Source: a virus. Taken from it: 45,599 bases of DNA. The DNA lies in IMG/VR virus record IMGVR_UViG_3300045928_000228, positions 1 to 45,599 of that record, one strand, 5' to 3'. Below are positions 17,288-37,905 of this stretch, one piece after another. How positions within the stretch are numbered: the stretch's first letter is position 1; each line of letters starts with the position of its first letter. The translations under genes and the position numbers were made by a program. The notes under the pieces were generated by a model. It saw nothing but the letters and a program-made list of their open reading frames with translations. It searched no databases and had not been told where the DNA came from.

Positions 17288-17289
17288 TC

Positions 17290-21399: not shown

Positions 21400-21407
21400 G
21401 GGGAAAG

Positions 21408-21510
21408 GGAGTGGAGTGATGGAGTGATGGAGTGATGGAGTGATGGGAAAGCGCAGCCAATCGCGTGCGCGGCAATACTCCAACACTCCATTACTCCATT
21501 ACTCCGTTGT
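21408..21510. repeat. Second heptad family (GGAGTGAT) as an inverted pair
   Basis: Four GGAGTGATGG-type units are followed by about 45 bases, then by TCCAACAC/TCCATTAC units in the opposite sense. The halves can pair. Related tracts occur at 4493-4526, 15740-15765 and 40728-40860. Confidence 0.8.
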
Positions 21511-21765: not shown

Positions 21766-21771
21766 TCTTCA

Positions 21772-21853
21772 GAAGGGCAGACAGTCAGAGGGCAGAGGAC
21801 AGAGGATAGATGTCAGACCTCTGACCTCTGATCTCTGATCTCTGATCTCTGGT
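21772..21853. repeat. Heptanucleotide repeat tract
   Basis: CAGAGGG/CAGAGGA units are followed by TCTGACC/TCTGATC units. It reaches into the 3' end of the next gene, giving that protein an S-E-I-R-D-Q-R-S-E-V end. Confidence 0.8.
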
Positions 21854-24930: not shown

Positions 24931-25009
24931 GCCCGCGCGTTTTTTTGTTTTTTTCGTACCTCACTGGAAAAGAAGCCGCGGTTTGGTAACCTGAATTTCG
25001 GTTTTCGCC

Positions 25010-25660
25010 CTAATAGATTTCTTTCAATTCGCACGAAAGAATCTCGTCAATTCGCTTTCGAATTCGTTCCAGTTCGGCTTTTAGTTCCGACTTCGCTTCG
25101 CTCGACCAGGTAATGATCAATTCAGGTTCGAGTTGACGCAATCCTTCATTCACCCAGCTCGCCGCGATCCAACCAGCGGAAGTCACGAGCGGTTCATTCA
25201 GGCCCCGTCGCGCGCTCCGGAGTTCGCGTCGCAACTTCCCAGCACTCCATTTTTCTTTTTCAGCGCGAGCAAGATATTTTGATTGTTGCGCCGGTGGTAG
25301 GGCAGCCACTTCTGCGTGGTGAGTCCATGACAGCTTGTCCCGGCGCCGGGACAGTGGCAGATGGCGTTCGACCCAAGCCCAATTCCGCAGCGTCTGGTAT
25401 TCCTCTTCAAAAAGTCCCGCCGCTAACCCGTATTTCCCCAAAAAGCCACCGATACGCTTCTCGATATTCTCGTGATGGGGAAAACCCAGATCAAGGTCCG
25501 ACAAAGCACCCGCATTCAACAAGCCGCCGATGTTAAACTGAATGCCCTTGCGCTCTCGATTTATGTCGCGCCAAGCGTCCCACCAATCTTTCGATGTCCA
25601 ACCCTGCTTGAAAACCGGACCAACCTCCGTGAATTGAATCCTCTTGACCGTCTCGATCAC
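25010..25660 (-). CDS. Putative DNA-binding protein
   Basis: A 216-aa protein starting at a GTG joined to the upstream stop as GTGA, with GGAGG nearby. The segment A-L-P-P-A-Q-Q-S-K-Y-L-A-R-A-E-K-E-K-W-S-A-G-K-L-R-R-E-L-R resembles ParB-like or HTH helices seen in plasmid and phage DNA-binding proteins. A charged C-terminal coiled coil follows. A palindrome, TGTCCCGGCGCCGGGACA (25336-25353), lies inside the gene. It could act in replication, partition or packaging control. No firm family. Confidence 0.55.
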   Translation of the reverse strand: MIETVKRIQFTEVGPVFKQGWTSKDWWDAWRDINRERKGIQFNIGGLLNAGALSDLDLGFPHHENIEKRIGGFLGKYGLAAGLFEEEYQTLRNWAWVERHLPLSRRRDKLSWTHHAEVAALPPAQQSKYLARAEKEKWSAGKLRRELRSARRGLNEPLVTSAGWIAASWVNEGLRQLEPELIITWSSEAKSELKAELERIRKRIDEILSCELKEIY

Positions 25661-26466
25661 CCATTCCTCCTGCGATGGTTGCTCTGCCGCATCCGCTCCC
25701 GTGCAGCGTCATCACGATTCGCGCGCGTCTGCCTTAGACCAAGACCATCGCGAAAACCCTCAACCCCTTCCTCCACAGCCTGCTTCGAAATGCCGAATTT
25801 AGCCGCCCATTGCGGCCCCGTCATTTCCGTCGCCAACAAGATCCCGGCGCTAATTCCGAGCTGCACCATTGCCAAGCCAGGCTTCTTCTTGCGACACGCC
25901 TCCGCGATCAGCGCGTTCGTGATTTGCTTCCTCAAAGCCCGCCGTTCGGCAATCCAGAGCAACCGCGTCCGCGCGAACCGCTCCGCAGACACGGCTGCCA
26001 AACCAGACGGCACGCCCGCCTCATCGGCATCAAACCCGGCCAACACGCGGACGAAATCCGCCACCTCACGCCGAAACTGCTTGAGACTCAAGCCATATTC
26101 CTTCGCCCACTTCGCTTGTGGCTTCGCCGATGCCAGCAACGCCCCACTCGCGAAGCCCAGTTCCACCGTCCGCAAACCCGGCTGCTCACAATCATCGAGA
26201 ATCAAATGCAAAAGAAACTGCACCACCTCTCGGCGAAACCGCTCCCGCTGCTCCTGCAGCCACTCCGTCAAAATCCTATCCTCAATCCAATCCACCATCG
26301 TGCGACCTGTGGCGGCTTCGCGCACCTCATCCCGCGCGAGATCCTCAAGCGAATCCAATTCCGAAAAATCAAAATGCGTGATCTGAACCGGCTGCGGGAC
26401 ATCATCAATCCATTCGACCGGGATATGGCCATGAGATTCAGCCCCCGCCAAGAGAAGTTTACCCAT
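25657..26466 (-). CDS. Putative DNA-binding protein with a duplicated HTH-like domain
   Basis: A 269-aa protein. The start M-G-K-L-L-L-A (26466) has GGAGG 9 bases upstream and is preferred over a longer frame. It contains two related halves. The first has G-A-L-L-A-S...W-A-K-E-Y-G-L-S-L-K-Q-F. The second has G-I-L-L-A-T...W-A-A-K-F-G-I-S-K-Q-A-V. The second half reads like a helix-turn-helix (sequence before F-G-I-S-K-Q-A-V). The N-terminal part is acidic. Likely a regulator or replication protein; the domain repeat suggests binding of a bipartite site. Confidence 0.6.
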   Translation of the reverse strand: MGKLLLAGAESHGHIPVEWIDDVPQPVQITHFDFSELDSLEDLARDEVREAATGRTMVDWIEDRILTEWLQEQRERFRREVVQFLLHLILDDCEQPGLRTVELGFASGALLASAKPQAKWAKEYGLSLKQFRREVADFVRVLAGFDADEAGVPSGLAAVSAERFARTRLLWIAERRALRKQITNALIAEACRKKKPGLAMVQLGISAGILLATEMTGPQWAAKFGISKQAVEEGVEGFRDGLGLRQTRANRDDAARERMRQSNHRRRNG

Positions 26467-26702
26467 GAGGGCAAACCTCCGAGTCAAAAGACACCGCACC
26501 GGCGCTGGGCCGAAAACAAGGCGGCACATTGCGTAGCCTAACGAACGCGCCCCCTGCCGACGATGCCAAAATGACGCACCGCCCGATCACATGGGCTCCC
26601 CAACCGCCCGGCCATCCCGCAAAGCCCCGCGCTGGCCCTGAACAATGTGATAAGCGGGCCGAACGCTTTTTGCGGGTAGCTCGCGAGCGGTTGGGAAAAA
26701 TT

Positions 26703-27074
26703 TCATTCGGCTCTCAATCGATAAAACCGCGCCCGCGCGTCTGCTGGCTCGATCAAAGTAAAACAAAACCGCTCCGAGGCATCCTGAACAGGTCTGGAAT
26801 AAATCTTGCGCCAATGGACGCAATCCCCACTCGACTCGATTACCGCCGCCTTCCGCCCGGCCAACCCCGACACGGACAGCGTGACATAGCGAAATCCATT
26901 CGTGGAAACGTACCGCAAGCCGCCCGAGCCCGCATCATGGACGAGCGGAAATTGGACCGGATAAACCTTGATCTTCAGTTCGGCGCCCAGCCCGACCGAT
27001 GAGACTGCCAGACAAGCAACCGCCAACGCCGCCAAAATAATTTGCGACGATTTGCGACGAATTCTGAGGCCCAC
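26703..27074 (-). CDS. Small secreted protein next to the integrase
   Basis: A 123-aa protein from a GTG (27074) preceded by AAGGGG. A longer frame starting at 27215 overlaps the integrase stop as ATGA, but its first 47 residues read through a palindromic repeat and look non-coding. Residues 2-31 form a signal peptide (R-I-R-R-K-S then a hydrophobic core, ending G-L-G-A). The end, V-I-E-S-S-G-D-C-V-H-W followed by R-A-R-F-Y-R-L-R, is a pattern frequent in secreted verrucomicrobial proteins. A possible host-derived cargo or lysogenic conversion gene. Confidence 0.55.
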   Translation of the reverse strand: MGLRIRRKSSQIILAALAVACLAVSSVGLGAELKIKVYPVQFPLVHDAGSGGLRYVSTNGFRYVTLSVSGLAGRKAAVIESSGDCVHWRKIYSRPVQDASERFCFTLIEPADARARFYRLRAE

Positions 27075-27262
27075 CCACCCCTTTTGGTGCCTTCCGGAAG
27101 GCGAGTGATGAGCAATAATCCCTCGTAAAGCTGGGGTTTCCGCGTGTTTTGGATGGTTACCCGAGGCGGGCTGGTAGCCCGCTACCGGCACTTCAGTTTT
27201 GCCGTGATTTCTCATGTGAATTTGAGGTTGAGTATTCCGTTTGCGACGGTTTTGCGACGAAT
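27030..27262. other. Candidate attP region
   Basis: The 10-mer TTTGCGACGA occurs at 27041, 27051 and 27251, with a one-base variant at 27240. The copies bracket the integrase stop and the 140-bp gap after it. Phage attachment sites usually lie beside the integrase, and clustered short repeats can be core or arm sites. No host att sequence is available for comparison. Confidence 0.3.
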
Positions 27263-28372
27263 AGCGAACCATTCTTCGCCAATTTGCTTGGTCCGCGGGC
27301 GGCGATAGCTCCGCATCACTTCCGCGGGGCTGTTGCCCATTTCGAGGGAAACTTTCGCCACGTCTTCGGTCACGGCGGTCCGATACGTGCCGAACGAATG
27401 GCGCAAGGCGTTGTGTCGCCATCGGCCCAGGCCGACGCGCTTGGCCAGCCGGCTCAATGCCTCGCCGATCCGGCCGCTGCGAAAGTCGGTGACCGGCCCG
27501 CGCGCCTCGTTCCACGGCTCAAGCCAATCGGCGGCGTTGTCCGGGATGGGAGCGAGGCGGGCTTCCTCGGTCTTATTTTCGTCGGAGACGTGGATCACGC
27601 GATGTTCGATGTCCACTTCTTCCCAGCGCAGGCGCTCGATCTCGCTCTCGGTGCGCAGGCCGCAAAAGCCGCCCAGGATCAGCACGGGCAACAGGCGATC
27701 GTTGGCGCCTTCCAGCAACAGCCGCATCTCGGCTGGGGTCCAAATGGCTTTGGCGGCGCGGGTCTTGGCTTTGGGCACGGTGACGAGGGCGCGCAGACCG
27801 ACGCTGGCGAAGAAGTTGGTCAGGGCCGCGCGGTAGTTGTTCCGGGTGCGCGGACCGATGCGGAGGCCATCGAGCCAGGCGGCGATCATTTCGGGCGTGA
27901 GCCGGCCCAGCGGCAGGGTGAATGAGCGCGCGAACTTGCCCAAGCGCAGTTCCAGATCGCGCACGGTGCGGAGGCGGCGGTTCGCGGCGCGTTTGGTGGC
28001 GAGGAAGCGTTTGACGGCATCGGCCACGAGCACGGCGGGCGCGGCTTCGAAGGGCTCGCGTTTGAGGCGTTCGCTGACCTGGAAGTAATGTTCCTCGATG
28101 GTTAGGCCGCGCTGGTGCAAGAGATCGCGCAGGCGCTCGGCGTAATCCCGCTCGCGCGGGGTGAGGCGCAGGAAGGCGCTGGCGCCGTTAGCCAGGCTGG
28201 TCAGGATCTCGTGGGCGTAACTCTCGGCCAGCGCGCGGCTGGAGAACCCTTTGCGGACGGTGCGGGCGCCGTCATGCCATCGGACCTCGTAGCGGACCTT
28301 GCCGGCGAAGTTTCGGCGGTAGATCGGCAGGGTGACGTTGCCGAGGCGCTGGTGGAGCGGGGTCATAGTCAT
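27212..28372 (-). CDS. int: Tyrosine-family phage integrase
   Basis: A 386-aa protein. The start M-T-M-T-P-L (28372) overlaps the stop of the 66-aa gene as ATGA. N-terminal arm-binding region, then a core-binding helical part (residues 115-200). The catalytic domain has G-L-R-T-E-S-E (R240), E-N-K-T-E-E (K267), N-A-L-R-H-S-F (R324), M-G-N-S (N347, where His is common) and a tyrosine at Y356 (V-M-R-S-Y-R). It inserts and removes the phage DNA from the host chromosome, so the phage is probably temperate. It lacks the extra alpha helix region of integron integrases as far as I can see. Confidence 0.85.
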   Translation of the reverse strand: MTMTPLHQRLGNVTLPIYRRNFAGKVRYEVRWHDGARTVRKGFSSRALAESYAHEILTSLANGASAFLRLTPRERDYAERLRDLLHQRGLTIEEHYFQVSERLKREPFEAAPAVLVADAVKRFLATKRAANRRLRTVRDLELRLGKFARSFTLPLGRLTPEMIAAWLDGLRIGPRTRNNYRAALTNFFASVGLRALVTVPKAKTRAAKAIWTPAEMRLLLEGANDRLLPVLILGGFCGLRTESEIERLRWEEVDIEHRVIHVSDENKTEEARLAPIPDNAADWLEPWNEARGPVTDFRSGRIGEALSRLAKRVGLGRWRHNALRHSFGTYRTAVTEDVAKVSLEMGNSPAEVMRSYRRPRTKQIGEEWFAIRRKTVANGILNLKFT

Positions 28373-28569
28373 TCGGTCTCGCGCAAAAGGCGCTCCATCT
28401 CTTCGCGGGTGATGCCGGGCCGACACTCTAGGAAAAACTTCCAAAAGCGATCCGCTTGCGAGGAATAAGCCTCATGCGGATGCGCCTCGGCAAACCAGCG
28501 CCAGGTGATCTCTTCGATTTGCGCGTCGGTTGGTTCAGTGGGTTCGATCATTTCGCGGTGCGTCGTCAT
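28369..28569 (-). CDS. Small acidic protein in the integrase operon
   Basis: A 66-aa protein, M-T-T-H-R-E-M-I-E-P-T-E-P-T-D. Acidic, with a W-R-W-F-A-E-A-H motif and a helical end (E-E-M-E-R-L-L-R-E-T-E). Overlaps both neighbours by ATGA. Unknown function. Confidence 0.55.
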   Translation of the reverse strand: MTTHREMIEPTEPTDAQIEEITWRWFAEAHPHEAYSSQADRFWKFFLECRPGITREEMERLLRETE

Positions 28570-28838
28570 GGCGGGGGCTCGGCGGTGTAAACGGGCTCGG
28601 GGACTTTGGGCGAGTCGCCCAAAGGGACAGGCGGGCCGCCCGTGCTCCCCGGAACGGGTTCGGCGGTTTGGGCGAGCAGCGCGGTGAGCAGGTTATTGGT
28701 GCGCTTTTGTTCGCGCACGATGGCGCGGAGTTGCGCATAGACCACCCACGGGAAAATCAGCCAAAAGATCGCGAGGATCATCGCCAGGATTACGACGATC
28801 AGCCCGATAATGCCGGTGGCGAGGTGTTCAGCGTTCAT
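28566..28838 (-). CDS. Small membrane protein with a proline-rich tail
   Basis: A 90-aa protein. Residues 8-38 are one long hydrophobic stretch (I-I-G-L-I-V-V-I-L-A-M-I-L-A-I-F-W), followed by a charged helix. A Pro-rich tail (G-G-P-P-V-P-L-G-D-S-P-K) is read from a family B-type palindrome at 28601-28653. Coupled by ATGA on both sides. Possibly an anchor or small-holin-like protein, but no holin family is recognised. Confidence 0.55.
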   Translation of the reverse strand: MNAEHLATGIIGLIVVILAMILAIFWLIFPWVVYAQLRAIVREQKRTNNLLTALLAQTAEPVPGSTGGPPVPLGDSPKVPEPVYTAEPPP

Positions 28839-29047
28839 GCCTTTGATTTGGTCCTGCGGATTTTGTATTGGACGGGCTGCTCGTGCAGGGACGCCAGGCT
28901 GACACCGCGCTTGGCGAGGTATTCGATGAAGGCTTGCCGCGCATGTTCGCTCTCGCTGCTGAAGGTTTCCGCCGCCAGCGCTTGAAAGGCTCGTTTCATA
29001 GTGCGGGGCACGCGCACTTTCATTTCCGTGTCCTTAGAGGGTTGCAT
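28835..29047 (-). CDS. Ribbon-helix-helix DNA-binding protein (second)
   Basis: A 70-aa protein, M-K-V-R-V-P-R-T-M-K-R-A-F-Q-A-L-A-A-E-T-F-S after a short lead. This is the strand-helix-helix layout of Arc/MetJ-type regulators. Overlaps the first RHH gene (ends H-A-T-L). It may share its operators. Confidence 0.6.
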   Translation of the reverse strand: MQPSKDTEMKVRVPRTMKRAFQALAAETFSSESEHARQAFIEYLAKRGVSLASLHEQPVQYKIRRTKSKA

Positions 29048-29243
29048 GTTTGAGCCATTGGCCGCGCGTTTTGCCTGCGAGCTTCACTCGTTTCATCGGT
29101 TTCCGTCGTGCAATGAGTTCACTGAAGGCGATGCGCCCGATGTCGGAGAGGTCCAGTTGTTCCTGGTCGGCCATTTGCACGAGGGCAAATTTCATTAGAG
29201 GCTCAACGCGGACCTTTATTTCTTCAGACTTCTTTGGCCGCAT
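29034..29243 (-). CDS. Ribbon-helix-helix DNA-binding protein (first)
   Basis: A 69-aa protein from M-R-P-K-K-S-E-E-I-K-V-R-V-E (29243). Strand residues I-K-V-R-V-E then two helices (L-M-K-F-A-L-V-Q-M-A, D-I-G-R-I-A-F-S-E-L) match the RHH fold. The ATG lies directly beside two GTTCCC(C) boxes, so the gene is probably controlled by these. It starts the leftward operon with int. Confidence 0.6.
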   Translation of the reverse strand: MRPKKSEEIKVRVEPLMKFALVQMADQEQLDLSDIGRIAFSELIARRKPMKRVKLAGKTRGQWLKHATL

Positions 29244-29341
29244 GGTGGGAACGATGGGGAACAACGCCCCACACGTCAAGCCTATTTTTCTTTGCGAAAG
29301 TTCTTGACCGAACGTTCCCCGTTATGGGACAAATGGGGAAC
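29244..29341. promoter_or_regulatory. Divergent control region with GGGGAAC boxes
   Basis: GGGAAC and GGGGAAC at 29247-29262 touch the start of the leftward RHH gene. The inverted repeat GTTCCCC-N14-GGGGAAC at 29314-29341 covers the ATGs of the rightward RHH gene. Four related boxes between two divergent regulators suggest a lysogeny-type switch. Promoter -35/-10 elements are not clear by eye. Confidence 0.55.
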
Positions 29342-29512
29342 ATGAGCAAACGAAGGCTTAATGCCGAAATCAAAACAAGGGTCGAAAAGCCAATCAAACG
29401 GGCTTTCGAGAGGCTGGCCAGGGAACGGGCGCTGGACGCCTCCGATTTACAACGCGAGGCGCTGCGGGAATATCTGGAGCGCGCCAAGGGCGCTCACGCG
29501 CTGGCGGAGTAA
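29342..29512 (+). CDS. Ribbon-helix-helix DNA-binding protein (rightward)
   Basis: A 56-aa protein, M-S-K-R-R-L-N-A-E-I-K-T-R-V, then helices F-E-R-L-A-R-E-R-A and L-Q-R-E-A-L-R-E-Y-L. Two earlier in-frame ATGs (29324, 29333) lie inside the operator. The strand residues I-K-T-R-V match the leftward copies in pattern. It heads the plus-strand early module, so it may repress itself or the leftward operon. Confidence 0.6.
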   Translation: MSKRRLNAEIKTRVEKPIKRAFERLARERALDASDLQREALREYLERAKGAHALAE

Positions 29513-29616
29513 AATTCTGACTCCTGACTTCTGAATTCTAACCTCTAACCAATTTGGCCTGGTCGCGCGGGCGGGAAGAAACTCAACGAACGAAAAGGAG
29601 GGCAAGACAACCTAAA

Positions 29617-31047
29617 ATGATTCCGCTTCTTTCCCTACAACACCGCGCGACTGGCCAAGCAAGTCTTGAGGCGAAAGTCTTGGGTCCTGCGAAAGGGGAT
29701 GCCTATTGCGCATTCCTGGAGCGCAAGACGCACTTGGGCCAGCAATCGGGGTTCAAGCCGCTTTGGATGCCGGATTTCCTGTTCCCATTCCAGCGCGCGC
29801 TCACGAGCTGGGCGATTGAGAAGGGGCGCGCGGCCATTTTCGCGGATTGCGGCCTGGGCAAAACGCCCATGCAACTGGTCTGGGCACAGAACGTGGTGGA
29901 GCGCACCTGCAAGCCCGTGCTCATCCTCACGCCGCTGGCGGTGGGCGCGCAGACGATTCGGGAGGCGGGCAAGTTCAGCATTCAGGCGGCGCAATCGCGG
30001 GATGGGAAGATTGCGGCACCGATCACGGTCACGAATTACCAGCAGCTTCATAAGTTTGATTGGAAAGAGTTCGGCGGGTGCGTCTGCGATGAATCGTCCA
30101 TCCTGAAAAATTTCGATGGGCAGATCCGCGCGCTGGTGACCGAGTTTATGCGGAAACTGCCGTATCGGCTGCTCTGCACGGCTACGGCTGCACCCAATGA
30201 TTACATCGAGCTGGGGACTTCGAGCGAGGCGCTGGGGGAGTTGGGCTTCACGGACATGATTAATCGGTTTTTCAAAAAGTCCGAGAAGACGGCGACGCGG
30301 TCAGAGGAATATCGTTCGGGTCTCTACCGTTTCCGCGGCCATGCGGCGCACGATTTCTGGCGTTGGGTGTGTTCGTGGGCGCGGGCGTTGCGGCAGCCGT
30401 CGGATTTAGGTTTTCCGAACGATGATTACCGTCTGCCGGAACTGATTACGGTGGAACACATCGTCAAGGCGCGCACGGCGAACCCTGATTTTCCCGCCCA
30501 CGGGTTAGCCGAGCAACGCGCGGAACGCCGGCGGACCATTCACGAACGCTGCGAAATGGCGGCGGCGCTGGTGGCGGACACGGGCAAGCCGTCGGTGGCC
30601 TGGTGTCATTTGAACGAGGAAGGGCATTTGCTGGAAAAGCTGATTCCTGGCGCGGTGGAAATAGAGGGAAACGATTCGGACGAGTTCAAGGAAGAAACCT
30701 TTGAAGCGTTCGCGGCAGGGCAAATTCGCGTGCTGGTGTCCAAGCCAGTCATCGCGGGGTTCGGCCTGAACTGGCAGCACTGCGCGCATCAAAGCTTTTT
30801 CCCGTCCCACAGCTTCGAGCAGTTCTATCAGGCGATTCGTCGGTCCTGGCGGTTCGGCCAAAAGCAAACAGTGCGCGTAGACGTGATCACCTCCGAGGGC
30901 GAGGCCGGGGTGATGGCCAACCTGAAGCGGAAGGAAGCTCAGGCAGAGTCGATGTTCGCGCGGGTGGTGGAGCTCATCAATAACGAGCTGCGCCTGGAGC
31001 GGCTGAATCGGTTCACGCAAGAGCAAACTATTCCGTCATGGCTGTAA
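29617..31047 (+). CDS. SNF2/DEAD-like helicase
   Basis: A 476-aa protein starting M-I-P-L-L-S-L (29617; a TTG 63 bases earlier is less likely, and AGGAGG lies 15 bases upstream). Motif I C-G-L-G-K-T (78-83), motif II D-E-S-S (158-161), motif III T-A-T-A-A-P (188-193), and motif VI R-R-S-W-R-F-G-Q-K near 430. W-M-P-D-F-L-F-P-F-Q-R is the family's Q-motif-like lead. Phage members pair with a DNA methyltransferase gene, as here (10-bp overlap). Likely uses ATP to move on DNA, perhaps in replication or defence evasion. Confidence 0.85.
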   Translation: MIPLLSLQHRATGQASLEAKVLGPAKGDAYCAFLERKTHLGQQSGFKPLWMPDFLFPFQRALTSWAIEKGRAAIFADCGLGKTPMQLVWAQNVVERTCKPVLILTPLAVGAQTIREAGKFSIQAAQSRDGKIAAPITVTNYQQLHKFDWKEFGGCVCDESSILKNFDGQIRALVTEFMRKLPYRLLCTATAAPNDYIELGTSSEALGELGFTDMINRFFKKSEKTATRSEEYRSGLYRFRGHAAHDFWRWVCSWARALRQPSDLGFPNDDYRLPELITVEHIVKARTANPDFPAHGLAEQRAERRRTIHERCEMAAALVADTGKPSVAWCHLNEEGHLLEKLIPGAVEIEGNDSDEFKEETFEAFAAGQIRVLVSKPVIAGFGLNWQHCAHQSFFPSHSFEQFYQAIRRSWRFGQKQTVRVDVITSEGEAGVMANLKRKEAQAESMFARVVELINNELRLERLNRFTQEQTIPSWL

Positions 31048-32039
31048 TCAATCAACTGATCACGCCGAAGTATGCGCTGTATAACGGCGATTGCATCGAC
31101 GTGATGGAATCCCTTCCGGACGGCAAGATTGATCTGAGCCTTTATTCGCCGCCGTTCTGCGGGCTTTACAATTACAGCAGCAGTGAGCGCGACCTGAGCA
31201 ACTGCGCGAGTTACCAGGATTTCTTCGCGCATTACCGTTTCGTCGTTTCGGAATTGGCGCGACTCACCAAACCGGGGCGGATCACGGCGGTGCATTGCAT
31301 GGATGTGCCAGGAACGGGCAACGGCGCGACGGCGCGGATGGGTTGCGGCGCGAATGTGGGCACGGGGTTGATTGATTTTCCGGGTGACCTTATCCGGCTG
31401 CATGAGGAGTGCGGATTCGTTTTTGCGGGCCGACGTGCGATTTGGAAGGAGCCGCTCGGCGTGCGTTTGCGCACGATGGCCAAAGGGCTCGCGCACGCGC
31501 AGATCGTGGAGGACTCGACGTTGTGCGACGTCGCGAATGCGGATTATCTGCTCACCTTCCGACGGAAAGGGGACAATCGCATTCCGGTCGCGCATCCGAC
31601 GGGCCTGCATTCCTACGCTGGCGAACGGCTGATCCCGCACGAGTTGCAGCAATGGAAGGGACACAAGGGCAAGCAGACGGAGAACCGTTTCTCGCATTGG
31701 ATCTGGCGCCAATACGCCTCGTCGTTTTGGGATGATATTCGGATTGATCGCGTGCTGCCGTATCAGGAAAGCCGCGAAGCCGATGACGAGCGGCACGTGC
31801 ATCCGTTGCAACTGGACGTGATTGAGCGTGCGTGCGTGCTGTGGTCGAATCCGGGGGAGGTGGTGTTTACGCCGTTCATGGGTGTGGGCAGCGAGGTGTA
31901 TGGGGCGGTGTTGAGCGGGCGCAAAGGGATCGGGATCGAACTCAAGACTTCCTACTACAACCAGGCCGTGCGGAATCTGGCCGAGGTGGAAAATGCGGCG
32001 GAACAGGATTTGATGGGGCTGATGGAGGTGCCCGCATGA
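31038..32039 (+). CDS. DNA adenine/cytosine-N4 methyltransferase
   Basis: A 333-aa protein. Motif IV S-P-P-F at 37-40 and motif I F-M-G-V-G-S at 280-285, an order (IV first, I last) of beta-type DNA methyltransferases that methylate amino groups on adenine or cytosine N4. An N-terminal N-G-D-C-I-D-V-M-E-S-L-P matches the usual start. It overlaps the helicase by 10 bp. It may protect phage DNA from host restriction. Target site unknown. Confidence 0.85.
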   Translation: MAVINQLITPKYALYNGDCIDVMESLPDGKIDLSLYSPPFCGLYNYSSSERDLSNCASYQDFFAHYRFVVSELARLTKPGRITAVHCMDVPGTGNGATARMGCGANVGTGLIDFPGDLIRLHEECGFVFAGRRAIWKEPLGVRLRTMAKGLAHAQIVEDSTLCDVANADYLLTFRRKGDNRIPVAHPTGLHSYAGERLIPHELQQWKGHKGKQTENRFSHWIWRQYASSFWDDIRIDRVLPYQESREADDERHVHPLQLDVIERACVLWSNPGEVVFTPFMGVGSEVYGAVLSGRKGIGIELKTSYYNQAVRNLAEVENAAEQDLMGLMEVPA

Positions 32040-32085
32040 GTTCGGCGAATCTCGGACCAGAGGCGCACAATCTGCGAGTCCAGCC

Positions 32086-32337
32086 ATGACCTTGGCGAAA
32101 GGCGAAATGCAAGCACTCCTGGCCATCTCCCTGGCCACCGGCTCTGACGGCAGCGCGCCGCTGGGGCCGGTGATGGCCGGTTTTCGCCGCGAAAGTGAGG
32201 CGCGTTCCATTCTGGAATCCCTGTGCAGATGCAACCTGATCGTGGTGGATTGGGTCTCGCGCACAGCTCGAATGCTGGAAGCGAACGTAGCTCGCCTGAT
32301 TCTGCCTTCCTCACCAAGCGGAACTGCTCCCGAATGA
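32086..32337 (+). CDS. Small hypothetical protein
   Basis: An 83-aa protein, M-T-L-A-K-G-E-M-Q-A-L-L-A-I-S. Helical, with a winged-helix-like F-R-R-E-S-E-A-R-S-I-L-E-S-L pattern. A 17-codon reading frame (32036-32089) overlaps the methyltransferase stop and this start and may couple translation. Function unknown. Confidence 0.5.
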   Translation: MTLAKGEMQALLAISLATGSDGSAPLGPVMAGFRRESEARSILESLCRCNLIVVDWVSRTARMLEANVARLILPSSPSGTAPE

Positions 32338-32356
32338 GCACCCGCTGGATGAGGCG

Positions 32357-32791
32357 TTGGCGGACGTGGCGAAAATCAGAGGTCAGAGGTCAGAGGTCAG
32401 AGACGAGTTTCCCGCGCGCGTTTCTGCGCCGCGCCTCGAAGGAGTCGAGATCGAGAATAAAAGTACTTCTTACTCGAATTCGAATCGAGTCGAGGGCGCG
32501 GCGGCGGCGCGTTCCGGCGGCGCCGCCGGAACGGACACGCGGGGTCGCGTGTGCTCCCCGGAGGCTGACGCGGCGGCCGCGTACATTGGGGAAAAGCTGG
32601 CGTTGCCGTCCATGCTGCATGTGCTCAAAGAGGTCACGGGCGGGGTGGAGCACATGCGGTTGAAGTTTTCCTGGCTGATGGATCACAAGCCTGAGCGTCT
32701 GGCCGAGTTGATCGGCGAGGCGGCGACGCCGGAGGTGCGGCAAAAGGCGCGCTGGCTGAACGCCGCGATGCGCAAGGAGATGGCCGTATGA
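32357..32791 (+). CDS. Hypothetical protein with two repeats inserted in frame
   Basis: A 144-aa frame from a TTG; the true start is uncertain because no ATG in this frame lies close upstream. Residues 7-16 are translated heptads (R-G-Q-R-S-E-V-R) and residues about 52-69 a family B repeat (R-S-G-G-A-A-G-T-D-T-R-G-R-V). From 70 on, a normal helical domain is seen (L-P-S-M-L-H-V-L-K-E-V-T-G-G, K-A-R-W-L-N-A-A-M-R). The insertions may have damaged the 5' end. The natural-looking E-H-P-L-D-E-A-L-A-D-V-A just upstream favours an original longer gene. Confidence 0.5.
   Translation: MADVAKIRGQRSEVRDEFPARVSAPRLEGVEIENKSTSYSNSNRVEGAAAARSGGAAGTDTRGRVCSPEADAAAAYIGEKLALPSMLHVLKEVTGGVEHMRLKFSWLMDHKPERLAELIGEAATPEVRQKARWLNAAMRKEMAV
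32511..32560. repeat. Family B repeat inside a gene
   Basis: GTTCCGGCGGCGCCGCCGGAAC and CACGCGGGGTCGCGTGTGCTCCCC, the most symmetric first stem in the window. A heptad tract precedes it at 32380-32402. Confidence 0.8.
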
Positions 32792-33111
32792 ACTCGCCGG
32801 GTGCAGCGGAAATCCAATTTGAGCGCGAGGGTGCCCGCGTTCAGGAAAGGGGTCACAACGGTGCGTTGGCGGCGGCACGGACGTCCGCCGCCAGCCGCCC
32901 TGACGCTGGCGAGTGCCTCACGCTCGCTCAAGTCGCCGCGCGGTTGCGGTGTCGCCCCTGTGACGTGCCATTGCGGAGGCCCGGCGAGGCCGAGGGGATC
33001 GGCTATTTCACTTTGCCGAACGGCGCCGTGCGGGTGCCGGTGGCCGAGTTGGTGGATTACATCTGGCGGGTGACGGTGAAGCCAGAAAAGAAAGGGATGA
33101 GTGACGTGTGA
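32788..33111 (+). CDS. Excisionase/MerR-like HTH protein
   Basis: A 107-aa protein. Residues 43-95 read C-L-T-L-A-Q-V-A-A-R-L-R-C...G-A-V-R-V-P-V-A-E-L-V-D-Y-I, the winged-HTH layout of excisionase or helix-turn-helix_17 proteins. A low-complexity N-terminal part precedes it. It starts by ATGA overlap. It may be an Xis for the integrase although it lies on the other strand, or an early regulator. Confidence 0.6.
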   Translation: MNSPGAAEIQFEREGARVQERGHNGALAAARTSAASRPDAGECLTLAQVAARLRCRPCDVPLRRPGEAEGIGYFTLPNGAVRVPVAELVDYIWRVTVKPEKKGMSDV

Positions 33112-33287
33112 CGAGTGACGAGCCAATCTGCACCACGGCGGGCGGCGTCTCCGCCTCCACCTCCGCGCCGCCCGCCCCGAAGGAAGTCAGCATTCCGACT
33201 CCTGACTTCTGTCTTCTGTCTCCTCATTCCCTTTTTTGGTCGCAAGCCATCGCTTACGGCGCAGTGATTCTGTGGCTGATCTTATGA
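33108..33287 (+). CDS. Small protein with a membrane end
   Basis: A 59-aa ORF from a GTG overlapping the previous stop (GTGA). The middle is heptad-derived (T-P-D-F-C-L-L-S-P). The end I-A-Y-G-A-V-I-L-W-L-I-L is hydrophobic. Coupled to the next gene by ATGA. Function unknown. Confidence 0.4.
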   Translation: MTSDEPICTTAGGVSASTSAPPAPKEVSIPTPDFCLLSPHSLFWSQAIAYGAVILWLIL

Positions 33288-33412
33288 GACTCGTCGGCTG
33301 CATCTTGATCGTCATTGGCTGCGCCATCGCGTTCCTTGGGCCGTGGCAGATTGCGGCCTTCTTCAGCGGGCTGGGCGTCGTGGCGGTTTGTTATCCGAGT
33401 TCAAGGCCATGA
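33284..33412 (+). CDS. Small two-span membrane protein
   Basis: A 42-aa ORF, M-R-L-V-G-C-I-L-I-V-I-G-C-A-I-A, with two short hydrophobic stretches. ATGA overlaps on both sides. Could be a small holin-like or accessory protein. Confidence 0.45.
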   Translation: MRLVGCILIVIGCAIAFLGPWQIAAFFSGLGVVAVCYPSSRP

Positions 33413-33525
33413 AAACAGAAATTTTACAGAAGCAAACGAAGGAAACGAAGCCCGCAGACGGATATCTGCCTCCGTCCGGTCCAGTCCCTTCGTTGCCTTC
33501 TGTAAAAAATTCTTCTGCCCCATGA
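33409..33525 (+). CDS. Very small hypothetical protein
   Basis: A 38-aa ORF, M-K-T-E-I-L-Q-K-Q-T-K-E-T-K, polar start and Ser/Pro-rich end, ATGA overlaps on both sides. Kept because it bridges the chain; function unknown. Confidence 0.35.
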   Translation: MKTEILQKQTKETKPADGYLPPSGPVPSLPSVKNSSAP

Positions 33526-33716
33526 GCCCGCACATCACCATTCACGTGGACGAGAGTGTCCGGTGCAAAATCTGCCAGCGACCCGGCGCGACGGCGACGG
33601 GCGAGTGTTTGCGGTGCATCGGTAGGAAGCTCAAAACCACGCTCCGGCAGCGCCTCGAGCAAGGCGAACTGTTCGTTAAAGACGGCGGCGCCGCGCGGCA
33701 TAATCCCCCCAAGTGA
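33522..33716 (+). CDS. Small zinc-ribbon protein
   Basis: A 64-aa protein with C-K-I-C (residues 14-17) and C-L-R-C (29-32), a four-cysteine zinc site. ATGA overlap with the gene before. Basic helical part after the zinc site. Probably binds nucleic acid or a protein partner. Confidence 0.55.
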   Translation: MSPHITIHVDESVRCKICQRPGATATGECLRCIGRKLKTTLRQRLEQGELFVKDGGAARHNPPK

Positions 33717-33720
33717 CGAG

Positions 33721-33912
33721 ATGAGCGCGATCTCTTATGCGGCCCCGGTGGTGCGCTGCCCGTATTGCGGGACGGTGAACGTGGCGTCGGCGGCGCTGGC
33801 GAAATGTCGCGGGTGCGGGAGCGAATTCAAAACGGTCGCGCGCCCGCTCACGGATGACGAGATCCAGAAATTCATGGCCGTCGGCGCCGACCGGCCCTTG
33901 CCCCGCTTATGA
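33721..33912 (+). CDS. Small zinc-ribbon protein
   Basis: A 63-aa protein with C-P-Y-C (13-16) and C-R-G-C (30-33), then T-D-D-E-I-Q-K-F-M. Last intact gene of the plus-strand chain. Its stop overlaps the ATG of a truncated gene. Function unknown. Confidence 0.55.
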   Translation: MSAISYAAPVVRCPYCGTVNVASAALAKCRGCGSEFKTVARPLTDDEIQKFMAVGADRPLPRL

Positions 33913-33965
33913 ATCCGCAACAGCTCAAAGACAATCTCTCGATGCCTTATGCGCGAACTTACTGA
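33909..33965 (+). pseudogene. Truncated gene at the edge of the cassette array
   Basis: ATGA overlap as in the rest of the chain, then only 18 residues (M-N-P-Q-Q-L-K-D-N-L-S-M-P-Y-A-R-T-Y) before a stop. The start and the leading residues look like a genuine gene start. The cassette array begins within these bases, so the gene was probably cut by its insertion. Confidence 0.45.
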
Positions 33966-34152
33966 CGAGGAGGATGTGTATTGGGTTAGGACCCATAGAT
34001 TGAGCGGAAAAATCACTGCTGCTTTAGTCGAGAAGCACTTCTCCAAAGCAGAACTCGAAAACGAACTGAATGACATGCGTAAATTTGGGCCTGTGCGCCG
34101 AATACTGGCTAGTCGCGTGGTAATTGGTGACGCACTCAAGGCAAGCGCATAA
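33949..34152 (+). CDS. Cassette gene 1, hypothetical
   Basis: A 67-aa charged helical protein, M-R-E-L-T-D-E-E-D-V-Y-W, ending in the left core of attC1. Unknown; the N-terminus overlaps the truncated phage gene in another frame. Confidence 0.5.
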   Translation: MRELTDEEDVYWVRTHRLSGKITAALVEKHFSKAELENELNDMRKFGPVRRILASRVVIGDALKASA

Positions 34153-34253
34153 CGCAGAGCTGAGGCACGGCGGCGATAACCAATGACTTTATGAGCGAGA
34201 AACATGAACAAATGACTACGGCTCCCGCCGTTGCCTCCAGCGACGGGTTAGGA
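34147..34253 (+). other. attC-like site 1
   Basis: GCATAAC at the left and GTTAGGA at the right. GAGGCACGGCGG on the left pairs with CCGCCGTTGCCTC on the right, leaving one unpaired base. 107 bp. Confidence 0.75.
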
Positions 34254-34541
34254 TGCGTCCAGTGCAAGGAGTGGGAAGGTGAAATCGACTCGCTCTATAA
34301 GGCACTGCACGTAAAGCTTGATGAGACAACGGTGGATATAGCGTGTAGTCAGGCACTCGAAGCCATCGCCTGCCTGAAACACATCGCAATCGAGATGGCC
34401 GCGCATGGTGACTGCCACTGCACGAAAAAGGATGACCATTGCCCATATTGCATCGCGTGCAACCTGGTCGATAGCGGACTGCGCATGACCGAAGACGACG
34501 AGCGCAGGATGATAGACGCTCTAGACGCTCTAGCATCCTAA
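34191..34541 (+). CDS. Cassette gene 2, Cys-rich zinc-binding protein
   Basis: A 116-aa protein starting in the attC1 loop. Cys/His pattern C-V-Q-C near 22 and H-C-P-Y-C-I-A-C near 84-91, so zinc binding is likely. Helical between. Ends in attC2. Confidence 0.5.
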   Translation: MSEKHEQMTTAPAVASSDGLGCVQCKEWEGEIDSLYKALHVKLDETTVDIACSQALEAIACLKHIAIEMAAHGDCHCTKKDDHCPYCIACNLVDSGLRMTEDDERRMIDALDALAS

Positions 34542-34674
34542 CGGCGAGTTGAGCAACGGAAAGCCGCCCCATGAAAAGTAAAAAGAAGGAAGCGACGTTT
34601 GCTCCAACGAGTAGTTCCGCGCGAAGGGTGCGACGGGAAAAGGCGGCTTGGAGTGGAGCAACTCGCCGTTCCGC
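34536..34674 (+). other. attC-like site 2 (long)
   Basis: AACGGCGAGTTG on the left pairs with CAACTCGCCGTT on the right, plus an inner AAGCCGCC/GGCGGCTT stem. 139 bp. About 90% alike by eye to site 9. Confidence 0.75.
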
Positions 34675-34879
34675 GGGGAGCCGGTCTGCGCCGTTGTCAG
34701 CAACTCTCCCGTATGATGAATGGAAAGCTCTAGGCGCGGAAAAGGCAGCCGAAGTCTTTGCGCGTCACAACGGCTGGACCGCCAAACAGCAGGGAGAGTT
34801 GTGGGCCATGTTGGAATTTGCCTGGGACGCTGAGGCAACAAATGCAACGAGAGCGACACCGCCGGGTTCGCTGGAGTGA
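34571..34879 (+). CDS. Cassette gene 3, N-terminus encoded by attC
   Basis: A 102-aa protein starting inside attC2. The first 35 residues (F-A-P-T-S-S-S-A-R-R-V-R core) are the translated site. The rest is a helical domain (E-K-A-A-E-V-F-A-R-H-N-G-W-T-A-K-Q-Q-G). Shares the attC-coded N-terminus with cassette gene 13. Confidence 0.5.
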   Translation: MKSKKKEATFAPTSSSARRVRREKAAWSGATRRSAGSRSAPLSATLPYDEWKALGAEKAAEVFARHNGWTAKQQGELWAMLEFAWDAEATNATRATPPGSLE

Positions 34880-34885
34880 CTTGAT

Positions 34886-35119
34886 ATGCCAATGGACTTT
34901 CCGGACATGAAGAGTCTGACGAATGCAGCGGAACTGTGGAAATTTCGCAAGCCGAACAAAGGCGAAACCGAGGACCAATACCGAACCGCGCTCGCGGACT
35001 TCGTAGCGCCCAAAGATTTCGTGGAGTCGTGCGAAATCCGAAACAAGGTCGGATGGGACAAATTCTCCCATGAACAAAGTCGCGACATGCTGAGACGGCG
35101 TGGATTCCCTTTGGCATAA
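34886..35119 (+). CDS. Cassette gene 4, hypothetical
   Basis: A 77-aa charged protein, M-P-M-D-F-P-D-M-K-S-L, stop in a GCATAAC (35114) like the attC1 left end. The right half of a site here is not found, so two cassettes may have merged. A decayed right half may lie at 34846-34885. Confidence 0.5.
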   Translation: MPMDFPDMKSLTNAAELWKFRKPNKGETEDQYRTALADFVAPKDFVESCEIRNKVGWDKFSHEQSRDMLRRRGFPLA

Positions 35120-35129
35120 CGGCTGAGCT

Positions 35130-35399
35130 ATGAGACGCCGGACCAAAAACCGCCCGATTGCAACTGAGAACGCCTCCCGGCCATCTTGGGTGTGGCACGA
35201 GTCGGCACACGACGCGATGCAGCATCTGGCCAACGCCTTTGCTGAATGTGCCGTCAGTGCTCATGTTTCCGGTGGCGCGATATTCGCAAAGACGAGTGAC
35301 GGCATGAAGTGGGTAATCCGATACGAGCAGATGGGCGTCAGAAACTCTAAGACCGGAAGCATAGGCAAACGTATAAAGGCTAAATGGCCTAACGATTGA
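35130..35399 (+). CDS. Cassette gene 5, hypothetical
   Basis: An 89-aa protein, M-R-R-R-T-K-N-R-P-I-A, with a central W-H-E-S-A-H-D-A-M-Q-H and a C-terminal basic end inside attC4. No family. Confidence 0.5.
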   Translation: MRRRTKNRPIATENASRPSWVWHESAHDAMQHLANAFAECAVSAHVSGGAIFAKTSDGMKWVIRYEQMGVRNSKTGSIGKRIKAKWPND

Positions 35400-35474
35400 G
35401 ATGAGCAGCGCCGACAACAACGCCACGATCCCGAAAAGAGCGGACCAAGCGTCTGCTCCATCGAAGGGTTAGTC
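35387..35474 (+). other. attC-like site 4
   Basis: GCCTAAC (35387) fits RYYYAAC exactly; right end GTTAGTC (35468). GATGAGCAGCGC on the left pairs with GCGTCTGCTCCATC on the right. 88 bp. Confidence 0.8.
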
Positions 35475-35627
35475 ATGCGCATAAAATTTGCCAAACGGCT
35501 CTGGCCGGGGACGACAAAACCAAGCCAGCGAGAAGCCAACCGAAAACGCATGGAGCGAGACAAGCAATTATTCATCTCGGCCCAACAGCGCATGGTACTG
35601 CGACGTAAGGGGCGTGGTCAAAAATGA
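35475..35627 (+). CDS. Cassette gene 6, small basic protein
   Basis: A 50-aa ORF between sites 4 and 5, M-R-I-K-F-A-K-R-L-W-P-G, very basic. Start is one base after the attC end, stop in the next site. Unknown. Confidence 0.45.
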   Translation: MRIKFAKRLWPGTTKPSQREANRKRMERDKQLFISAQQRMVLRRKGRGQK

Positions 35628-35718
35628 CTAACCCAGAAGTCAGCGATGAGCGCCACCCAAACGCCACCTATTGCGAATGACGCCGCTGGCGCTCATTCGC
35701 TGGACCGTCTGGTTCGGC
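35626..35718 (+). other. attC-like site 5
   Basis: GACTAAC at the left, GTTCGGC at the right. TCAGCGATGAGCGCC on the left pairs with GGCGCTCATTCGCTGGA on the right with one extra base. 93 bp. Confidence 0.75.
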
Positions 35719-35954
35719 GATACCGTGATGCCTTGGAACAAATCGCCGCACTCTCTGGCGTTACGGAAGTGCGCGGCCCGCTGGAGGACATCGGCGTTCC
35801 TGATCACATGGTCAAAGAGGGCGGGTGGGTTCCGATACATCCAAGGCTCAAAGACGGGCTATGCTACGCCGCCAAGATAGCCAAGGCCGCACTGGACGAT
35901 TCGCCGAACGCTGCGGAACTGAGCGACCGCCGCTGGAGAAAGACTGAAATATGA
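35646..35954 (+). CDS. Cassette gene 7, hypothetical
   Basis: A 102-aa protein with helices A-L-E-Q-I-A-A-L-S-G-V and C-Y-A-A-K-I-A-K-A-A-L. Start in the attC5 loop. Joined to the next by ATGA. A similar I-A-K-A-A-L end is common in phage and cassette proteins. Confidence 0.5.
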   Translation: MSATQTPPIANDAAGAHSLDRLVRRYRDALEQIAALSGVTEVRGPLEDIGVPDHMVKEGGWVPIHPRLKDGLCYAAKIAKAALDDSPNAAELSDRRWRKTEI

Positions 35955-36202
35955 CGGAGGAAGAACTGACCGCTCACATCAAGGACGAATACGGAAACGC
36001 GGGACTTGCTGACCTACCCGACAGGCTGGCGCGAGTGGCGCAAAAAGGAACGAGCGACCGGCTGCACAAGAACCTCGCGGAACTCCTAGAACTAAACCGG
36101 GCAGGAGATGGCGAGACACACCTAACCGAGGATGAAATCTACGCGAAATACGCGAATCCTCCTAACGGTCGGGATCAGCGACCCGGCGACCAAAACGCAT
36201 GA
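35951..36202 (+). CDS. Cassette gene 8, hypothetical
   Basis: An 83-aa acidic protein, M-T-E-E-E-L-T-A-H-I-K-D, ending within attC6. Second gene of a two-gene cassette. Confidence 0.5.
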   Translation: MTEEELTAHIKDEYGNAGLADLPDRLARVAQKGTSDRLHKNLAELLELNRAGDGETHLTEDEIYAKYANPPNGRDQRPGDQNA

Positions 36203-36251
36203 TATTTACGAGAGACGCAATCGCCGGGTTCGCTGCATCCCGTTGTTCTGG
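36160..36251 (+). other. attC-like site 6
   Basis: CCTAAC left end. GGGATCAGCGACCCGGCGA on the left pairs with TCGCCGGGTTCGCTGCATCCC on the right with extra bases. Right GTT at 36245. About 92 bp. Confidence 0.75.
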
Positions 36252-36275
36252 CTCAGTTTCCGAGGCTCGAAAAAA

Positions 36276-36325
36276 GATGAAAATAACTCTTGTAAATGCG
36301 CAAGCGCTTGCGCATAGTAGGGGCA
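36276..36325 (+). promoter_or_regulatory. Possible cassette promoter with operator palindrome
   Basis: TTGTAA (36290) and CATAGT with 17 bases between. A perfect 20-bp palindrome, ATGCGCAAGCGCTTGCGCAT (36296-36315), fills the spacer. Directly before the ATG of the next gene. Confidence 0.4.
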
Positions 36326-36591
36326 TGAAAAATAAATACTACGTCATCACTCCCAATAACAATGTGCGCGGCCCGTTCGCCTCGGTGGACGAAGCCCAGC
36401 AAGACATCCCAGACTCGCACGGCGAGCCGATGCACGACCATGTGACCGACATGAAGGGGTGCAGCGCGAACCTCCGGCACTCCGCTAATATCGGTGACGC
36501 GGAGATCAACCATGTCCAGACCTGGGTGCGCGACGCAGGTGATGACGCCGACGAGACGGGCTATCTGATTTTCGAGGCGACTCATGAATAA
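36325..36591 (+). CDS. Cassette gene 9, hypothetical
   Basis: An 88-aa protein, M-K-N-K-Y-Y-V-I-T-P-N-N-N, with an acidic body. In-frame starts further upstream (36277, 36199) read through the palindrome and the attC. The 36325 start is preferred. Overlaps gene 10. Confidence 0.5.
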   Translation: MKNKYYVITPNNNVRGPFASVDEAQQDIPDSHGEPMHDHVTDMKGCSANLRHSANIGDAEINHVQTWVRDAGDDADETGYLIFEATHE

Positions 36592-36766
36592 GGCCGCGCA
36601 AGCACTCGGACGGCTCGGCGGCAAGGCCGGCATGGGCAAAGCCAAGGCGCGGACCTCTGAGCAGGCCCGCGCCGCTGCACAGGCCCGCTGGAAACGCACG
36701 AAAACCAAGGCGCGTGCTCTGCGCCAGAACGCAGAACTGAGCGAACAGCCGCGAGAAAACCTATGA
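36584..36766 (+). CDS. Cassette gene 10, Lys/Ala-rich small protein
   Basis: A 60-aa protein with L-G-G-K-A-G-M-G-K-A-K-A-R and A-A-A-Q-A-R-W-K-R-T-K. Resembles widespread small phage and plasmid proteins with K-A-A-R-A-R-W ends. Its end lies inside attC7. Confidence 0.5.
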   Translation: MNKAAQALGRLGGKAGMGKAKARTSEQARAAAQARWKRTKTKARALRQNAELSEQPRENL

Positions 36767-36834
36767 ACAACGAATCGAAACAAAACTCCGAACAGCCAGC
36801 GCCCGCGGCTGTTCGCTCCAGTGACGGGTTAGAG
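36724..36834 (+). other. attC-like site 7
   Basis: GAGCGAACAGCCGCG on the left pairs exactly with CGCGGCTGTTCGCTC on the right. Right end GTTAGAG. 111 bp. Left core (CCAGAAC) imperfect. Confidence 0.75.
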
Positions 36835-37095
36835 CACCATTGGCGAACACCGCCGCCCGGAACAAAAATCGTGACGACTGGTCGGGTGCAAAAGGGCGAC
36901 TGGTTCTACATCGAGCAACTCGGCGCATGGGGACTCGTGCCGAAAATCGGATGGGGCGAGCAAATCAACGGCACCCTGATTGCTCGCGGTGAAACGATAT
37001 GGTCCGAGGTCGATACGTCTCGGTGCTCTAACGAATCAAGCTCACCCGCGACGCCCGGCGGCGACGGTGGAGCGCAGAAAGGACAAACGAAATGA
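36763..37095 (+). CDS. Cassette gene 11, hypothetical
   Basis: A 110-aa protein starting in the attC7 loop. The centre is beta-rich (G-D-W-F-Y-I-E-Q-L-G-A-W-G-L-V-P). Ends in attC8. No family. Confidence 0.5.
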   Translation: MNNESKQNSEQPAPAAVRSSDGLEHHWRTPPPGTKIVTTGRVQKGDWFYIEQLGAWGLVPKIGWGEQINGTLIARGETIWSEVDTSRCSNESSSPATPGGDGGAQKGQTK

Positions 37096-37151
37096 ACTCA
37101 ACGATTGAGCGGAAAGCGGGGGCGGCGTCGCGGTGCAGCGCCTTGTTAGGC
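37026..37151 (+). other. attC-like site 8
   Basis: TAAC left, GTTAGGC (fits GTTRRRY exactly) right. CCGCGACGCC on the left pairs with GGCGTCGCGG on the right. 126 bp. Confidence 0.75.
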
Positions 37152-37433
37152 GACATCTCCGACGATGAACTAGACCATCTCTCAAAAGGTCTGGAACTGA
37201 ACTTCGGTGCGCAACTCTGGCGACCGAAAGGAATGTGCGGCCTGATGATTCTGGAAACCGAGGATGGAACTCGGCACGGAATCTCTCCCGCCTGCACGGT
37301 GGACGATGCTTGGCGAATCGCCGAAGCGGCGTGGGAATCCGGCGACCCTGTGCCTCCGAAAGTTGACGGTGTGAGAAACATACTCGCGCAGTCGCCTAAC
37401 GGCGAGTTGAGCAACGGAAAGCCGCCCCAATGA
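37092..37433 (+). CDS. Cassette gene 12, hypothetical
   Basis: A 113-aa protein starting in attC8 and ending in attC9 (N-G-E-L-S-N-G-K-P-P-Q, read from the site). Central E-D-G-T-R-H-G-I-S-P-A-C-T-V-D-D-A. Function unknown. Confidence 0.5.
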   Translation: MNSTIERKAGAASRCSALLGDISDDELDHLSKGLELNFGAQLWRPKGMCGLMILETEDGTRHGISPACTVDDAWRIAEAAWESGDPVPPKVDGVRNILAQSPNGELSNGKPPQ

Positions 37434-37533
37434 AAAAGCAAAAGAAGGCAACGACGTTTGCTCCAACGAGTGGTTCCGCGCGAAGGGTGCGAGGGGAGAA
37501 GGCGGCTTGTAGTGAAGCAACTCGCCGTTCCGC
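37394..37533 (+). other. attC-like site 9 (long)
   Basis: GCCTAAC fits the left core exactly. Same long layout as site 2: GGCGAGTTG/CAACTCGCC and AAGCCGCC/GGCGGCTT stems. 140 bp. Confidence 0.8.
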
Positions 37534-37750
37534 GGGTCGCTGGTCTGCGCTGCTCAAAAGGCTAGAGCGCAACCGAAAAGTATTGATCGGTTTTCGGCAA
37601 AAGTTGGACCAAGAAGATTTGTCGAGGATGAGCATGTTCACTTGCGGCCAAATTGCAGCGTTCGATAGCGTGCTCTCGTGGATGAACGAAGCGCAGACCA
37701 GCGTCGCGCGGAACAACGCAATACGCGACAGACGTCGCATATCGTCTTAA
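37430..37750 (+). CDS. Cassette gene 13, N-terminus encoded by attC
   Basis: A 106-aa protein starting inside attC9. Its first 36 residues resemble cassette gene 3 (F-A-P-T-S-G-S-A-R-R-V-R). The rest is a different helical domain (L-E-R-N-R-K-V-L-I-G-F-R-Q-K). No attC follows, so the array may be cut here. Confidence 0.5.
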   Translation: MKKQKKATTFAPTSGSARRVRGEKAACSEATRRSAGRWSALLKRLERNRKVLIGFRQKLDQEDLSRMSMFTCGQIAAFDSVLSWMNEAQTSVARNNAIRDRRRISS

Positions 37751-37793: not shown

Positions 37794-37905
37794 ACAGCGC
37801 GGCGCGCCGCGGGTTCGGTTCACGTGATGATGCCAGAAAGCGCGCCTTCAATTTCAGGAGCCAGAAGTCAGAAGGCAGAAGTCAGAAGTCAGGAGTCAGT
37901 CCCCC

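Follow-up and report, generated by a model that had tools for sequence, protein, structure and literature searches.

An integron-type cassette array in a tailed phage, with start codons in its attC loops and probable relatives in other phages

Integrons have so far been regarded as bacterial platforms for gene capture that are occasionally carried off by phages. A survey of 10,705 phage genomes reported 17 clusters of attC sites lacking integrases (CALINs), three complete integrons and one In0 element, with TJE1, P12002L, PH101, Vibrio anguillarum and Shewanella prophages and P1 named as carriers, and IntI1 recombined five of the six phage attC sites tested (Qi 2023, PMC9892861). Here we analysed the IMG/VR record IMGVR_UViG_3300045928_000228, a linear sequence of 45,599 bases (the window), in which positions 33947-37714 hold eight attC-type sites and a series of small genes. 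We consider it probable (about 0.8) that this block is an integron cassette array with start codons in its attC loops and a member of a phage integron family. As in the CALINs of the survey, several attC sites and small cassettes, DNA methyltransferase cassettes among them, lie in phages mostly without the integron integrase IntI; the complete integrons described there derive from hosts or mobile elements (Vibrio, Shewanella, class 1), and the present case differs, as far as that report was available, by one attC type shared across phages, a phage IntI clade and starts in attC loops (PMC9892861). Phage CALINs are therefore already known, and judging from sequence the start-bearing loops and the phage IntI clade are what appears to be new. 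A literature search, mainly of open-access papers and without preprints, found neither a phage IntI clade nor start-less cassettes described.

Two further systems come close. Short open reading frames (ORFs) in attC and ORF-11 in attI1 aid translation, and they resemble the present case in that a start within the recombination site helps the next cassette, that termination and reinitiation are involved and that ORF-11 crosses the crossover point (PMC8876359). There, translation in the site yields a short peptide and begins anew at the start codon that the cassette itself provides, whereas here a start-less cassette gene would be fused in frame to a leader encoded by attC. The sedentary chromosomal integrons, such as the Vibrio type and an array in a contig (L019) of a Chloroflexota metagenome-assembled genome (MAG), share the attC fold with extrahelical bases and the tandem one-way cassettes, and in L019 also the complementarity between cassette starts and ends. 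The L019 array, with 13 near-regular attC sites and a constant GCCTAAC/GTTAGGC core, differs in this constant core, in its long paired stems and in the lack of a link between attC ATG and cassette frame; no IntI above the TIGR02249 cut-off was found in its genome.

The initial annotation had read eight attC sites out of the letters of this block. To avoid circularity, we built a covariance model (R1, our own and not that of IntegronFinder) from 21 attC sites that four other phages contributed, leaving the window sites out. Searched against the 45.6 kb, it returned exactly the eight annotated sites, all on the plus strand and within 3.4 kb, at E values from 3.6e-12 to 8.5e-5, while the next-best match had E 1.3 and nothing else fell below E 1. 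The stem of the model is paired in 90.9% of cells compared with 69.5% in shuffles, its covariation score is 0.541 compared with 0.179, both sides have changed in 13 of 17 pairs, and the support collapses when the partner strand is shifted by one column. The consensus has the attC layout, i.e., an outer AAC/GTT box, an unpaired spacer, an inner stem and two bulged right-arm bases (columns 48 and 55). R1 also recognises five attC sites of a class 1 integron and a chromosomal array in a Chloroflexota MAG; TJE1 scanned with it gave no site at the model threshold, and a search of Rfam gave no match. The bottom-strand folds, proposed at the outset as a check, show a stem with extrahelical bases in most window sites. 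The attC identity of the eight sites is confirmed by structure and covariation. A simple stem scanner was enriched in the array yet unspecific, and the covariance model was used instead.

The strongest match is site 1 (34147-34253, crossover G34247^T, 60.1 bits, E 3.6e-12), whose loop ATG at 34191 starts the c2 gene. Site 2 (34536-34620, crossover G34614^T, 31.2 bits, E 2.2e-5) has a loop ATG at 34571, site 3 spans 35387-35474 (crossover G35468^T, 33.4 bits, E 6.7e-6), and site 4 (35626-35718, crossover G35712^T, 40.5 bits, E 1.5e-7) has its loop ATG at 35646. At the four remaining sites the ATG of the loop overlaps the preceding stop codon as ATGA: site 5 (36160-36251, crossover G36245^T, 34.0 bits, E 4.7e-6, ATG 36199), site 6 (36724-36834, crossover G36828^T, 46.2 bits, E 6.5e-9, ATG 36763), site 7 (37026-37151, crossover G37145^T, 28.7 bits for 37082-37151, ATG 37092) and site 8 (37394-37479, crossover G37473^T, 36.6 bits, E 1.2e-6, ATG 37430). 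The annotated starts agree with the model except at site 7, where the match begins at 37082 and the left box at 37026 was set by an 11-nt complementarity to the start of c7. The extents of sites 2 and 8 had to be revised: they have 35 identical nt in common as well as a repeat of 125 nt (89%), but the long repeat palindromes were rejected as attC arms, R1 giving sites of only 85-86 nt. AAC and GTT boxes are present in all eight sites; of the right cores, four read GTTA and four GTTC. The strict RYYYAAC..GTTRRRY pattern finds no plus-strand site in the window because the cores are partly degenerate.

A second property concerns the cassettes. The free circle of an integron cassette joins the cassette start, after G^TT, to the left box of its own attC, and the two are therefore complementary. 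All eight testable cassettes (c1, c2 and c4-c9) show 8-11 nt of such complementarity, all in one orientation, whereas complementarity of at least eight bases occurs in only 2 of 2130 comparable GTT..AAC pairs elsewhere in the window. Cassettes with a GTTC core are still complementary to their own ends, except c3, for which no own end was found. Cassette c1 (33947-34247, including site 1) has its start TTATGCGC complementary to its end GCGCATAA and carries an ORF at 33949-34152. The ORF of c2 (34248-34614; start GTTAGGATGC, end GCATCCTAAC) runs from 34191 to 34541 and so begins in site 1, and 84 nt after the crossover are without a start codon. Region c3 (34615-35468), with ORFs at 34571-34879, 34886-35119 and 35130-35399, has no matching own end and probably consists of fused cassettes; the product of 34886-35119 resembles hypothetical proteins from large phages of Pseudomonas, Dickeya and Yersinia at 42-64% identity. 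Cassette c4 (35469-35712; ORF 35475-35627) has its own ATG directly after the crossover and a 9-nt complementarity. In c5 (35713-36245; ORFs 35646-35954 and 35951-36202) the end complementary to the start GTTCGGCGA lies at 35909, where the cassette ends with a truncated attC of its own, and the remnant of a second cassette appears to be fused to it. Cassette c6 (36246-36828; ORFs 36199-36591 and 36584-36766) has the start GTTCTGGC and a complementary end at 36730. The ORF of c7 (36829-37145; 11-nt complementarity) begins in site 6 and spans 36763-37095, and that of c8 (37146-37473; 10-nt complementarity) begins in site 7 and spans 37092-37433, with 87 nt after the crossover without an in-frame start. 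The terminal cassette c9 (37474-37714; ORF 37430-37750) has 11 nt of complementarity at a distance of 242; its attC is truncated right behind the left box, and R1 found no further attC match there. All cassettes lie on the plus strand, and comparison of their proteins with Pfam and PHROGs gave nothing convincing.

Most cassette ORFs have no start codon after the crossover; their frame extends upstream into the preceding attC, where the loop bears an ATG. An attC ATG in frame with the next ORF is present at 22 of 30 sites from five phages, compared with a permutation mean of 9.9 (none of 20000 permutations reached the count), and at 18 of 22 when only clear ORFs are counted (tail 1.2e-7). The sole window site without one is site 3, before c4. 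Frames were also called by codon usage, with start codons not used as input, because naive ORF frames showed no link in the IntI-bearing phages. Called in this way, all seven confident cassettes of the window have an in-frame attC start, and among 42 confident phage cassettes 24 have an attC ATG only, 11 an own ATG only (within 45 bases), four both and three neither. An in-frame attC start is thus found in 28 of the 42, with an own ATG in 11 of the remaining 14 (Fisher p 7.9e-5). The clearest case is the MT-A70 methyltransferase cassette of record G005, where the complete domain (residues 30-196, profile positions 1-172 of 172) begins a few residues past the crossover and the DPPW motif is encoded ahead of any start codon downstream of it. 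The Chloroflexota array lacks this association (6 of 13 sites, permutation mean 7.5), and the attC sites of this fold in Acidobacteriota chromosomes are for the most part compact, with 52-96 nt up to the crossover, and have an ATG open in the longest frame in only 3 of 27. A start-less cassette in another phage contig (L045:12500-13360) encodes a phage-like protein (VLVACEYSGTVRDAF) without a Pfam match.

The same attC type recurs in other phages. Pattern scans of viral contigs found it in L016 (8.1 kb), whose large terminase- and portal-like ORFs match no family, in L030 (record G003, 10.1 kb, with DnaB), in L031 (record G004, 75.3 kb, with IntI) and in L027 and L033, which represent a single phage (records G002 and G005, up to 55.8 kb) and where the array adjoins RecT and an exonuclease-like gene. 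Eight further pattern matches (L017, L018, L020, L028, L029, L032, L034 and L035) had no good left arm or matching end and were set aside as chance. The integrase of G004 scores 275 bits, above the TIGR02249 (NCBIfam) cut-off of 265, and its best match among solved structures is the integron integrase 2a3v. A search with it yielded relatives, 38-73% identical, in another ten viral contigs. In the contigs examined, intI lies on the strand of the array, close to its 3' side and often overlapping the next phage gene, and in most of them attC sites were seen upstream of intI; G008-G012 are sister records with arrays and IntI together. We also observed that phage IntI genes (L040:10001-10951, L051-L060) adjoin helicase or other early genes. 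One of the records, G008, belongs to a distant relative of the window phage (terminase 31% identity, E 8e-78; portal 26%; protease 37%) and carries array and intI at the genome place that corresponds to the window array.

A tree was built from phage IntI sequences, IntI1, Vibrio and Shewanella IntI, the recombinase of virus Rctr41k and 22 sequences from Acidobacteriota and Chloroflexota. Eight phage integrases form a single clade (support 100/100) outside all bacterial IntI sampled, i.e., those of the two phyla and the three references, to which they are at most 41% identical; the integrases of Vibrio, Shewanella and the phyla sampled are of another lineage. The IntI of contig L057 falls outside the phage clade, as does the IntI-like recombinase of Rctr41k (KX853513, 4680-5678, annotated xerD), which is 38% identical to the G004 integrase; no attC of this type was found in the 14.6 kb around its gene. 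That intI is itself a cassette component was rejected, no complementary end being present downstream. At the end of the last cassette, a short way upstream of intI, most IntI phages (L040, L051-L054, L056, L059 and L060) have a conserved AACANTGATT-like motif, a candidate attI. The motif also occurs at the array end of L045 (13352) and at the first cassette edge of L052 (5165).

We propose that the cassettes entered as circles by IntI-catalysed recombination of single-stranded attC with a core of the form G^TT or A^TT, the enzyme being supplied in trans by a co-infecting phage or the host, or by an own copy since lost. The predicted expression unit is a single operon of cassettes, read from the early region upstream. 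Within the mRNA, each attC hairpin would expose a loop with the start of the next cassette gene, and as this start often overlaps the previous stop as ATGA, the ribosome could re-initiate there and translate the right arm and the crossover into a cassette that lacks its own start. The predicted products would carry an N-terminal leader encoded by the preceding attC, to which the cassette's own attC would in many cases add a C-terminal tail. A new cassette would then be expressed only behind an attC with a start in the right phase, comparable to phase matching in exon shuffling, and the predominance of in-frame pairs would reflect selection after insertion. We lean slightly towards the wider view that some environmental phages own a distinct integron system, with an IntI lineage of their own in the early operon, start-less cassettes translated from the loop of the preceding attC, reshuffling of small accessory genes by phase-matched exchange, and phages without IntI, the present one among them, that borrow the enzyme of co-infecting ones.

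Several observations weigh against the membership of the block in a phage integron family with start-bearing loops. The window contig contains no IntI, its best TIGR02249 score being 15.5 bits, and the attI-like AACANTGATT motif is absent from the array edges. Half of the right cores read GTTC where GTTR is expected, so that the sites often depart from the GTTRRRY form. There are signs of decay, with attC truncated after 35909 and after 37714 and apparently fused cassettes at about 34.6-35.4 and 35.7-36.2 kb. In the window alone, the start link holds at seven of eight sites with a permutation p of only 0.03, and in the IntI phages L051-L060 it is not seen with naive longest-ORF frames (10 of 25, 9 expected) and appears only with codon-usage frames (10 of 18). 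The missing integrase, the truncated and fused cassettes and the degenerate cores would also suit a frozen remnant, a formerly working phage integron kept as an operon of small accessory genes. We regard this as possible, if doubtful, since all testable cassettes keep their long start/end complementarity, the arms are still paired and IntI could act in trans; it differs from the preferred reading in present activity only, and the two readings therefore overlap. Hairpin terminators or repeats that merely resemble attC would explain the off-consensus cores and the lack of IntI, but the R1 scores, the covariation, the recognition of known attC sites, the start/end complementarity and the IntI beside sister arrays have in effect refuted them already.

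With at least two close attC sites and no IntI, the block is by definition a CALIN, as initially described. The further claim that the phage had captured a bacterial array is not supported. Chance capture from a host chromosomal integron, with the array as passive cargo, has precedents in phage-borne CALINs from host integrons (PMC9892861), and MAGs of Acidobacteriota and Chloroflexota contain chromosomal sites that fold in the same way. It is nevertheless unlikely, given the recurrence of the attC type in several phages, the corresponding genome place in G008, the position of the phage IntI clade outside the bacterial ones sampled and the phage homologues of gene 34886-35119; the large start-bearing loops also differ from the compact bacterial sites examined, whose loops are small and rarely hold an in-frame start codon. 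The attC type, the IntI clade and the place in G008 make the window phage look like an intI-less member of the phage integron family and not like the carrier of a stray bacterial CALIN. A misjoining of a bacterial array to phage contigs is very improbable. The left edge of the array, C33946^T33947, is the crossover point of c1, and a contig from a different sample (IMGVR 3300049731_000216) matches window positions 17232-34446 at 99.98% identity and extends to 34562; the left junction and cassettes 1-2 therefore do not result from an assembly accident in a single sample. That contig ends within attC site 2, a sequence repeated at site 8, and such repeats could mislead an assembler. The right junction, near 37714, was seen in no second viral contig and has the support of one assembly only, a further point against the preferred reading; of the two junctions named in the initial annotation, a second contig confirms the left one. 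Similar arrays inside other phage contigs and the corresponding place in G008 argue against a misjoin.

In some phages, integrons seem to be a regular genome component, beyond cargo acquired from bacteria, and the spread of cassettes between hosts that was first suggested explains the evidence no better than their exchange among phages does. If there is a phage integron lineage with its own IntI clade, phages would be owners and exchangers of cassettes and one source of the large pool of small cassette genes without known function. If attC provides starts, the recombination site would have a second role, tying cassette mobility to reading-frame phase, and start-less cassettes would be mis-annotated by gene callers and in cassette catalogues.

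The carrier is a phage, as initially annotated, and of the tailed kind: PHROG and Pfam matches in the contig include terminase, portal, head protease and tail genes with a tape measure. On the minus strand, as are the head protease and tail genes, lie a lambda-type portal protein (19756-21486, PF05136, E 4.4e-16), a GpA-type large terminase (22382-24448, PF05876, E 3.7e-26) and a phage tyrosine recombinase (27212-28444, phrog_1, E 7.4e-23), which is not an IntI and accounts for the 15.5-bit TIGR02249 match. The closest named relative of the terminase, at 22% identity, is that of Verrucomicrobia phage P8625, a weak hint of the host. Helicase and N6/N4 DNA methyltransferase genes (29554-32039, plus strand, PHROG and Pfam matches) lie upstream of the array; the array follows these plus-strand early genes on their strand and is itself followed by tail genes on the opposite strand. 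Searches for relatives of a tail protein and a holin-like protein to its right gave none. Short CAGAAGTCAGAAG-type repeats are present at window positions 37857-37905 and at many other positions of the phage genome.

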